From assembly GCF_000022485.1 (NCBI RefSeq), contig NC_012623.1, forward strand, positions 2,506,501-2,570,500: DNA of 64,000 nt. The letters are read 5' to 3'. Every line of letters starts with the position of its first letter. Position 1 is the first letter of the stretch. Shown here piece by piece: positions 35,551-37,461 of this stretch. Both the position numbers and the translations under genes were made by a program. Source of the stretch: Sulfolobus islandicus Y.N.15.51. Its GTDB lineage: Archaea > Thermoproteota > Thermoprotei_A > Sulfolobales > Sulfolobaceae. The notes beneath the pieces are model-generated. The model did not search any database. It was given only the letters and a program-made list of their open reading frames with translations, and had not been told where the DNA came from.

Positions 35551-35666
35551 ATTATTTCCAATTTAATAAACATTTTCCAATACTAGCCTAAAAGTCTCAT
35601 AGCGTAGAGGACTATTTTGAAAGTTCTTTCCTTCGAATTCTTCAGCTCTAGACTCCAACTCTTTTA
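35551..35666. other. Short flank between nucleotidyltransferase and the insertion sequence
   Basis: No gene seen. The first 40 bases hold the promoter of the nucleotidyltransferase (minus strand). The rest leads to the left inverted repeat of the insertion sequence. Confidence 0.4.
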
Positions 35667-35698
35667 CGTAACCACTGGTTATTTTTAATTACTTCTAA
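35667..35698 (+). repeat. Left inverted repeat of the insertion sequence
   Basis: Begins CGTAAC and ends TTTTAATTACTTCTAA. It matches the reverse complement of 37119-37150 at 26 of 32 positions, with the last 16 identical. Confidence 0.75.
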
Positions 35699-35880
35699 AT
35701 ATCGTTTTGATTAAATAATGTTTATATAGTATTACAATGTATTTTCTATTGGTGATCTCCCAACTGATGACGGGTACTACTCACGAGGTTTGGGGAGTGA
35801 TAAAATTGAGGTCTAAGAACTTTCCGGCGTTCAGTAATAAATCTTTCGCTCAAACTTCAAGCATAGTATTAGCTAACATT

Positions 35881-35909
35881 GCCACGTGGGTCCTTTCAAC
35901 CCACGTGGC
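35881..35909. repeat. Strong hairpin beyond the transposase stop
   Basis: GCCACGTGGGT (35881-35891) and ACCCACGTGGC (35899-35909) form a perfect 11-bp stem with a 7-base loop, 21 bases from the transposase stop. It is a likely structural part of a non-coding RNA or a transcription stop. Confidence 0.75.
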
Positions 35910-35929
35910 GATTCGGGGGAGGGATTCAC

Positions 35930-36988
35930 CTATTTAGGCTCATAAGGCTTATTATTATACCAAACACTCCAAACAACCCTTGCCAACTTCCTAGCCAAAG
36001 CGACATACAACTTCTTACCCTTCAACCTATCCTTGTGTGTTTCATAAAACTTCAGCAAGGTTGGATTCCTAGAGTAATTCCTCATTGCTAAAAAGTAGAA
36101 CAAGCTACGCAAGTACTTATTACCCCTCTTGGAAATCCCCCTACTTATTACAGCCTTCCCGCTCCTCTCCACTACGGGATCTAAACCGCAATAAGCAACA
36201 AAGGACTCAGGCTTAGGAAAACGCTTAACATCACCAACAATACCAGCTGCAAGCCTCCCAACACTTGGTATCGTTAATAGGACGTGGTCTTGAGGGACTT
36301 GCCCCTCAATCATCCTCCTAACCTCCTTCAACCTCTCTTGCGTTTCTAGGATGTTTTTAGCCAGGATTTTGATTTCCTCAAGTACTATTGGCGTATATTC
36401 AAGTTGGTATAGTTCTTCCTGTGTGAAATCTCCTTTCGCAAGTTTTTCCAACCTGTCCTTGCTTACCTTATCGTTATCGCTTACTAGGAATAGTGCTCTC
36501 TTTAGCCTGTTCTTGTATTTCGTCTCTATGTCCTTTAGGAAGAGGTAGAGTGTTACTAATTCCTTTAAGGGGTTGTAATCGTACTCCTTAGCCTTGTCGA
36601 CCATGTTTTCTAATTTTTCTGCGTCGTAAAAATCTGTTTTCTTTCCCCTAAACTCCTTTTCCCTTGATAACACGTTTGGGCTGACTTGTAGTACTCTTAC
36701 CCCTCTCTCCTTGAAGTATTGTGAAGGCCTTATTGCGTATACTCCGGTAGGCTCTAGGACTATTACGCAAGGTTTCATCTTGAGGATTTCCTCATAACCC
36801 TTCTTACTGTTCTCGTATCTTCTCACCCTCCCCCTGCTAGTTATTAAATGTTCTTTTGATATATCTATTCCTATTATCCCTACCTCTTTGTCACACCTAT
36901 ATGCGTGAATTTTATCACAATGTTCAGTCCGACGGTAGGGGTTAGTCACGCCCGTAGCCGAAGACTTTGCTTCAGAACTCACGTCGAC
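35930..36988 (-). CDS. IS110-family DEDD transposase
   Basis: 352 residues from the ATG at 36988; a TTG at 37066 would extend it but would put the TATA element and a hairpin inside the gene. N-terminal RuvC-like DEDD domain: GIIGIDISKEHLI (first Asp), VIVLEPTGVYA (Glu) and FRGKKTDFYDAEKL (paired Asp). The C-terminal transposase_20 domain has LLTIPSVGRLAAGIVGDV, FVAYCGLDPVVERSGK and a serine in ISRGISKRGNKYLRSLFY. It catalyses RNA-directed recombination of the element. A minus-strand TATATAGG element near 37034-37042 is its promoter. Confidence 0.9.
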   Translation of the reverse strand, partial: VDVSSEAKSSATGVTNPYRRTEHCDKIHAYRCDKEVGIIGIDISKEHLITSRGRVRRYENSKKGYEEILKMKPCVIVLEPTGVYAIRPSQYFKERGVRVLQVSPNVLSREKEFRGKKTDFYDAEKLENMVDKAKEYDYNPLKELVTLYLFLKDIETKYKNRLKRALFLVSDNDKVSKDRLEKLAKGDFTQEELYQLEYTPIVLEEIKILAKNILETQERLKEVRRMIEGQVPQDHVLLTIPSVGRLAAGIVGDVKRFPKPESFVAYCGLDPVVERSGKAVISRGISKRGNKYLRSLFYFLAMRNYSRNPTLLKFYETHKDRLKGKKLYVALARKLARVVWSVWYNNKPYEPK

Positions 36989-37157
36989 CATGTTTCCCCA
37001 GTCGAGGAGAGTATTACTCTCCTCGACTAATAAACCTATATAGGCGTTTCCCTCGACCAGCCCCAATGATTTAAGGGTGACTGCGTATGATCCCTTAAGA
37101 GGGGTGCCCGTGGCAGAATTAGAAGTAATTAAAAGTAAGGAAAAGTTACGCCACGGG
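36989..37157 (-). ncRNA. Structured 5' region of the IS, possible bridge RNA
   Basis: Three inverted repeats lie in 169 bases upstream of the transposase: GTCGAGGAGAG/CTCTCCTCGAC (37001-37027, 11 bp, 5-base loop), TTAAGGG/CCCTTAA (37071-37098, 14-base loop) and CCCGTGGC/GCCACGGG (37107-37157, 35-base loop). This stem-with-large-loop pattern resembles bridge RNAs of IS110 elements. In IS1111-type elements the RNA is instead on the 3' side, so assignment is tentative. Confidence 0.45.
37119..37150 (-). repeat. Right inverted repeat of the insertion sequence
   Basis: Inverted copy of 35667-35698 (26 of 32 identical). It lies inside the 35-base loop of the CCCGTGGC/GCCACGGG stem. Confidence 0.75.
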
Positions 37158-37461
37158 TAAACACTCTTATATAGTAAAGAGGACCAATATACATTTCAAA
37201 CAATTATAGGTATTATTTGTTTTTACGTAGCCTAAAACTACCCAACCCTCATGGAAAACATTATCAAAATCCACCCTCATAAAGTTAAAAAGTTAAAGCC
37301 TTTGAATAATTCTTTCCAGATAAAATTTAGTAAATAGTAACTTATATTTAAGAACTTATTTAACAAGATTAAATAGGTACAAGAAAAGCTAATATCTTAA
37401 TAAAATGTGTTAAAGTACATTATGGAAAAGTTTTAAAAAGAGAGAGTACGGACATTATCTT
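37158..37461. other. AT-rich gap between the IS and the AbrB-like gene
   Basis: No gene or clear structure. TATA-like runs occur; AAGTTTTAAAAAG near 37428-37440 is placed to start the gene at 37462. Confidence 0.4.

Follow-up and report, generated by a model that had tools for sequence, protein, structure and literature searches.

Positions 35667–37157 of a 64,000-nucleotide stretch of the Sulfolobus islandicus Y.N.15.51 genome (contig NC_012623.1; the whole stretch is referred to as the window) raise the question of which DNA segment is mobile and how it selects its insertion sites. A preliminary description had read these positions as one intact 1491-bp IS110/IS1111-type element with structured non-coding sides that could encode a guide RNA. 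Here, we compare copies of the element within the genome and among relatives. It is very likely that a complete ISC1229-like insertion sequence (IS), residing in an IS200/IS605-derived mini-element, moves by bridge-RNA-guided recombination like that of IS621.

The locus contains two nested elements

A BLAST search of the own genome with the window element returns 61 matches. One class of matches spans just 37044–35826 and another just the outer arms; the inner ~1219 bp is found without outer arms, the outer arms are found without the inner part, and many IS copies are truncated. Window 35667–37157 is therefore two nested elements, an IS110-family IS inside a non-coding repeat of ~300 bp. Comparison of copies, a check that the preliminary description had proposed, fixes the ends of the IS at 37044 and 35826 and its core as CC (Table 1). 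The family assignment stands, whereas the original ends were wrong, and an annotation pitfall, in which a nested element is taken for a single IS, is thereby corrected. Empty outer repeats and solo inner elements elsewhere rule out both the outer arms as IS ends and a single IS1111-type element with structured outer sides. No match was found among named plasmid records.

The IS starts with CC-TATATAGG at 37044 and ends with CTGAACG-CC at 35826 (hyphens set off the core), giving a length of ~1217 bp plus one CC (~1.2 kb with CC at both ends). The right end reads TTATTACTGAACG-CC in dozens of aligned copies with unrelated flanks. Empty sites carry a single CC, as against CC at both ends of the IS, indicating a 2-bp core and no longer target duplication. 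The ~230 bases without a gene noted at the 3' side consist of 104 bp of the IS together with outer-repeat sequence.

Table 1 Features of the nested elements, in window coordinates
Feature	Position	Strand	Basis or remark
Outer repeat (~300 bp when the IS is left out), split by the IS110 element	35650..37164	minus	constant ends and varied flanks in 21 empty copies
IS110-family element, ISC1229-like	35826..37044	minus	sharp junctions common to dozens of copies, flanks unrelated
Left core dinucleotide CC	37043..37044	minus	precedes left end TATATAGG; single CC in empty sites
Right core dinucleotide CC	35826..35827	minus	junction alignment of copies
Predicted bridge RNA (5' stem-loop, target-binding loop, donor-binding loop, closing stem)	36878..37028	minus	fold and covariation
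5' stem-loop of bridge RNA	37000..37028	minus	14-bp perfect stem; compensatory changes in 4/10 consensus pairs
Left target guide, CGTGAGTTC in the window copy	36975..36983	minus	hypervariable; many copies show a match to their own left flank
Right target guide, GCTACGGG in the window copy	36951..36958	minus	CCCGTAG, its reverse complement, fits the right flanks of L007, L006 and L019
Left donor guide, GGACTGAACA	36921..36930	minus	matches IS right end ACTGAAC(G)
Right donor guide, CATATAGG	36896..36903	minus	complementary to core and left end, CCTATAT
IS110 recombinase	35930..36991	minus	start ATG 36991 or GTG 36949; overlaps the bridge-RNA region
3' hairpin with TTGAAAG in the loop, possible Cbp1 site	35881..35909	minus	11 bp, perfect
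Conserved right-end motif CGAAAGATTTATTACTGAACGCC, BRE/TATA-like	35826..35848	minus	conservation over 47 right ends
Foreign right flank, GGAAAGTTCTTAGACCTCAA + TTTTATC, in place of ACTACCCTCCCATCCACAC of the outer repeat	35799..35825	minus	identity to other flanks

The outer repeat was aligned over 21 empty copies, drawn from this genome and from three relatives; its ends GTGTTTACCC...GTTACAGTCT are constant and the flanks differ. The intact empty site reads GAGGGAAACA-CC-ACTACCC, with variants GAGGGAAACA-CC-A(C/A/T)TACCC, and the own genome holds five near-exact unoccupied copies of it. The 32-nt repeat and the long-loop stem that had been noticed are present, and lie in the outer repeat, outside the true IS: the 32-nt repeat (35667–35698 and 37119–37150) is 81% complementary, and the long-loop stem (CCCGTGGC at 37150–37157 and GCCACGGG at 37107–37114) encloses 35 nt. 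Since both belong to the outer element and not to the IS ends, the assignment to the IS1111 group that the 32-nt repeat had suggested fails. Likewise, the placement of the right repeat in the large loop had been thought suited to donor recognition; both are parts of the outer repeat, and the donor loop matches the true IS ends, ACTGAAC and CCTATAT, instead.

The right end of the outer repeat and the 3' terminus of a tnpB gene fall together at locus L196, where TnpB-family profiles score weakly, and for this reason the outer repeat looks like a non-autonomous deletion derivative of an IS200/IS605 element. A left-end hairpin is present, and the flanks of the 21 aligned empty copies are without evident target duplication. 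Neither a full autonomous partner nor a tnpA gene was identified for the outer repeat.

The recombinase and the predicted bridge RNA

The transposase is full length, as first described, with a DEDD reading frame on the minus strand from 35930 to about 36949–36991. It scores above the cut-offs for Pfam PF01548 and PF02371 and reaches 177.5 bits against NF033542, 'IS110 family RNA-guided transposase' (cut-off 140). Its solved relatives are IS621 and ISCro4 only. In alignments, all five catalytic residues of IS621 (listed in PMC11208158) are kept: DEDD (GID, E, KTD..DA) and, in the Tnp domain, Ser-Gly.

The first ~170 nt of the IS are highly structured (window 36860–37044; minimum free energy −71.4 kcal/mol, z = −6.5), and the predicted bridge RNA occupies IS positions 17–167 (window 37028–36878). 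On the 5' side, the aligned copies share a covarying structure: over the whole of it, 26 aligned copies contain 20 double-change cells compared with 6.5 in shuffles, and 96% of the cells are paired, compared with at most 56% for slid structures. A covariance model of it matches in 10 of the 147 genomes of the order, and Rfam has no family on this stretch (best 21.7 bits, cut-off 63). As the comparison of copies shows, the IS very probably encodes an IS621-like guide RNA on its 5' side, overlapping the start of the recombinase frame. The guide-RNA claim of the preliminary description thus holds in substance, but the RNA is formed by other structures than those it named.

The frame from ATG 36991 stays open through the guide segments into the recombinase in nearly all copies checked (window 36991–36890), so RNA and protein may overlap; if translation begins there, changes of the guides would alter N-terminal residues of the recombinase. 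Copies in genome G083 break this frame.

Two miniature copies, L024 (477 bp between ends) and L095 (301 bp), consist of the left end, the bridge-RNA region and the right end without the recombinase gene, and are possibly mobilised in trans. At L213, in a Candidatus Marsarchaeota metagenome-assembled genome, a 62% identical recombinase accompanies a clear match to the bridge-RNA profile, and the guides do not fit their own flanks in the expected manner. The sequence suggests either transfer between archaeal phyla or a binning error.

Target guides match insertion sites

Two segments of the RNA are hypervariable amid near-invariant neighbours, one of nine nucleotides after ATGGTCGA and one of about six before GGCGTGAC. 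The first corresponds, on the same strand, to the left flank of the copy that carries it, and the second, as the complement, to the right flank. The left guide scores 5.90/9 against its own flank compared with 4.21 ± 0.21 for shuffled flanks (49 unique pairs), and the right guide scores 2.93/5 compared with 1.82 ± 0.20 (30 pairs); none of 20,000 shuffles reaches the observed value for either guide. The test still holds when one copy per guide cluster is taken (median p of 0.002 for the left and 0.009 for the right guide).

Both guides match their own site in L032, in the outer repeat (guides GAGGGAAAC and GGTAGTGG; site GAGGGAAACA-CC-ACTACC), L140 (CCCCTTAAC and TATGGGGG; CCCCTTAA-CC-CCCAT), L171 (GACATTATC and GAGTGTGG; GACATTATGT-CC-ACACT), and L007 (CGTGAGTTC and GCTACGGG; CGTGAATT-CC-CGTAG). 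The distance from the left-guide match to the core differs by 0–2 nt among site types. About half of the 49 left-guide/site pairs are at chance level (at most 5/9), including window-type copies in the outer repeat, and for these pairs recombination after insertion must be invoked.

The left guide comes first and matches the top strand, and the right guide comes second and matches as the complement; both are on the 5' side of the IS. Comparing loop segments with the element junction and the empty site, as had been proposed, places the donor loop on the joined IS ends and the target guides on the flanks and the empty site. The donor guides are nearly invariant between copies, and therefore provide no covariation test.

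These correspondences are consistent with the following mechanism. The recombinase would bind an RNA expressed from the 5' part of the element. The first loop of the RNA would pair with both strands of the target, the left guide with 8–9 nt of the bottom strand and the right guide with 5–7 nt of the top strand, covering the CC core. The second loop would pair with the joined IS ends of a circular form, whose junction is predicted to read TTACTGAACG-CC-TATATAGG, and strands would be exchanged at the CC core.

The right end may also serve expression. In 47 right ends the last 26 positions are 96% conserved compared with 88% for the preceding 50, and the right end contains CGAAAGATTTATTA, resembling an archaeal BRE/TATA box. 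In the circle this putative promoter would lie ~30 nt upstream of the 5' stem of the RNA and would drive its synthesis; it would face the RNA only once the element had circularised. The element is presumably active.

No unoccupied site for the window-type guide CGTGRRTTCCCCGTAGGA was found in the own genome. At L125 (own genome, about position 545807), TTAGTATTTCTGGAAAA fits the guides of L013 and L014 (TAGTATTTC and GTTTCCGG), and may be the unoccupied form of their target. At L105, the bridge RNA and the right end enclose a decayed second IS110-type gene that replaces the recombinase of the IS, and the left guide, CTTGACGTC, is an exact fit to its own left flank. A second IS110-family element (L101:1639–2856, also at L102–L104; 231.7 bits against NF033542) interrupts the same IS at four loci of a related genome, lying in the spacer that separates bridge RNA from recombinase; its end together with half of the target forms the site that fits the guides of the window copy.

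Spread of the composite

The position of the IS within the outer repeat could also trace back to one ancestral insertion, the composite now being moved by its outer ends (HUH, IS200/IS605 type) with the IS110 element as a passenger. Six or seven composite copies with identical junctions are found in one genome, the base ahead of the core is G in the window copy, L002, L003 and L010 but A in empty copies, and the outer arms of the window copy and L010 group together in a tree. Against this, the tree of outer arms, which is poorly resolved, requires no fewer than two switches between filled and empty states, and the copies in genomes G003 and G124 (L032 and L166) keep A before the core. We regard passenger movement as possible but somewhat less probable than its opposite. 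It concerns the spread of the composite, and a guide-directed first insertion, as we favour, stays compatible with it.

The window copy does not fit its own site

The window copy resides in the outer repeat (GAGGGAAACG-CC) but carries the guides CGTGAGTTC and GCTACGGG, both of which fit sites of the L007 type rather than its own; the left guide also fits sites of the L011 and L022 type. L010 and L032, at the same site in the outer repeat, carry a fitting guide. In addition, the 20 bp that follow the IS in the window are foreign: they equal the right flank of L013 and L122 and chromosomal sequence at L123, and TTTTATC marks where they meet the outer repeat. A variant IS end does not explain the odd right junction (GGAAAG...), because it is chromosomal sequence found also at L123 and L125.

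This foreign flank at the right end suggests that recombination followed insertion of the window copy. Most simply, recombination with another copy would have replaced all of the IS body or, at a minimum, its right end. A GAGGGAAAC/GGTAGTGG-type guide, like those that L010 and L032 still have at the same site, would first have directed the window copy into the mini-element; its CGTGAGTTC/GCTACGGG guides would have come later, probably through recombination with a different copy. Once guide and flanks cease to match, a copy may be poor at excising.

Alternatively, a sister copy's bridge RNA could have guided the insertion of the window copy, the mismatch then arising without recombination. The donor ends and donor loops are nearly identical among copies, so their RNAs should be exchangeable, and ISEc11 is known to function with a guide provided in trans (PMC11187229). 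We nevertheless consider guidance in trans unlikely here, since the foreign flank at the right junction and the mixed guide pairs described below show that recombination occurred.

Left and right guides occur in different pairings. The left guide CCCCTTAAC is paired with four right guides and GACACTATC with three, and the right guides GCTACGGG and GGCGAGGG are each paired with several left guides. Mixed pairs are found in L144, L018 and the truncated L004, the last of which joins a window-type left guide to an outer-repeat-type right guide. The site of L005 and L006, AAGGGAAAA-CC-CGTAG, fits the opposite mixture, a mini-element-type left guide with a window-type right guide. Within single archaeal genomes, sister copies would swap left and right target-guide halves and so change their target, a proposal to which we give even chances. 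The halves would be exchanged by gene conversion, or by recombination through the conserved hairpin that separates the two guides. No complete set of the four combinations was found among the copies, and the exchange is therefore put forward as a hypothesis. If true, insertion sites record past guide combinations, and retargeting in nature is modular.

Ordinary drift of the variable segments in a decayed element with a non-functional RNA would account for the unmatched half of the guide/site pairs and the many truncated copies, and is scarcely credible given that shuffled flanks never reached the observed match and that exactly the guide positions vary next to nearly invariant bases.

Relation to known systems

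Several features are shared with IS621 (PMC11208160, PMC11208158): an RNA on the 5' side with a 5' stem-loop followed by a target loop and a donor loop, a left guide for 8–9 nt of the bottom strand and a right guide for 4–7 nt of the top strand, a DEDD recombinase with a catalytic Ser, and a 2-bp core. Left-then-right guide order is the rule for the IS110 group (PMC11208160, PMC11187229). In contrast to IS621, the core is CC rather than CT, the host is archaeal, the bridge RNA overlaps the recombinase frame, several targets are other mobile elements or repeats, and guides vary between copies in one genome. Durrant et al. predict bridge RNAs for most IS110 elements in ISfinder (PMC11208160), and this kind of system is therefore already known.

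Elements of the IS1111 group, which use seekRNAs (PMC11187229), share an RNA-guided DEDD transposase, and natural reprogramming has been reported for ISEc11/ISXne4. They differ in having the RNA on the 3' side, a reversed guide order and long subterminal inverted repeats, none of which was found in the inner element; in particular, the 25 longest pairs include no inverted repeat of at least 8 nt between the two inner ends (IS1111-type repeats are 7–17 bp). The element shows the IS110-group (IS621-like) features that could be tested and lacks the IS1111 ones. A single 1491-bp IS1111-type element, with the 32-bp repeat as its subterminal inverted repeat and a guide RNA in the outer non-coding sides, is accordingly very improbable: the repeat and hairpins are real and several whole-composite copies exist in the genome, but outer parts and IS occur without each other, it is the inner ends to which the donor guides correspond, the guides follow the IS110 order, and none of the 25 longest inverted repeats connects the inner ends.

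What is added here is an archaeal set of guides and sites, the nested anatomy and the mixing of guides. The copies form an archaeal, thermophilic bridge-RNA family with dozens of members, in which both guides can be read against actual and empty sites. In the papers found, natural retargeting in IS110/IS1111 elements is documented by one pair, ISEc11/ISXne4 (PMC11187229); here, single genomes hold a whole series of such changes, guide halves are mixed, and other transposons serve as landing sites. A thermostable bridge recombinase could be of practical use.

The outer repeat resembles, by description, Sulfolobus MITEs such as SMN1 (~320 bp; PMC3718332), a short non-coding repeat of similar length that an IS transposase mobilises; the outer repeat differs in that its right end matches a tnpB-bearing IS200/IS605 element.

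The IS itself is likely ISC1229, a name given by size, family and host rather than by sequence alignment. ISC1229 of Saccharolobus solfataricus P2 (PMC10883916) is, like the present element, an IS110-family member of ~1.2 kb with many partial copies in Sulfolobales and TTGAAAG in its 3' flank; guide RNA and target choice are not subjects of that paper. The 3' flank of ISC1229 is bound by Cbp1, and a Cbp1/CRISPR-repeat motif has been reported there (PMC10883916). The perfect 11-bp 3' hairpin of the preliminary description was found as described, and the TTGAAAG in its loop (window 35881–35909) resembles that motif.
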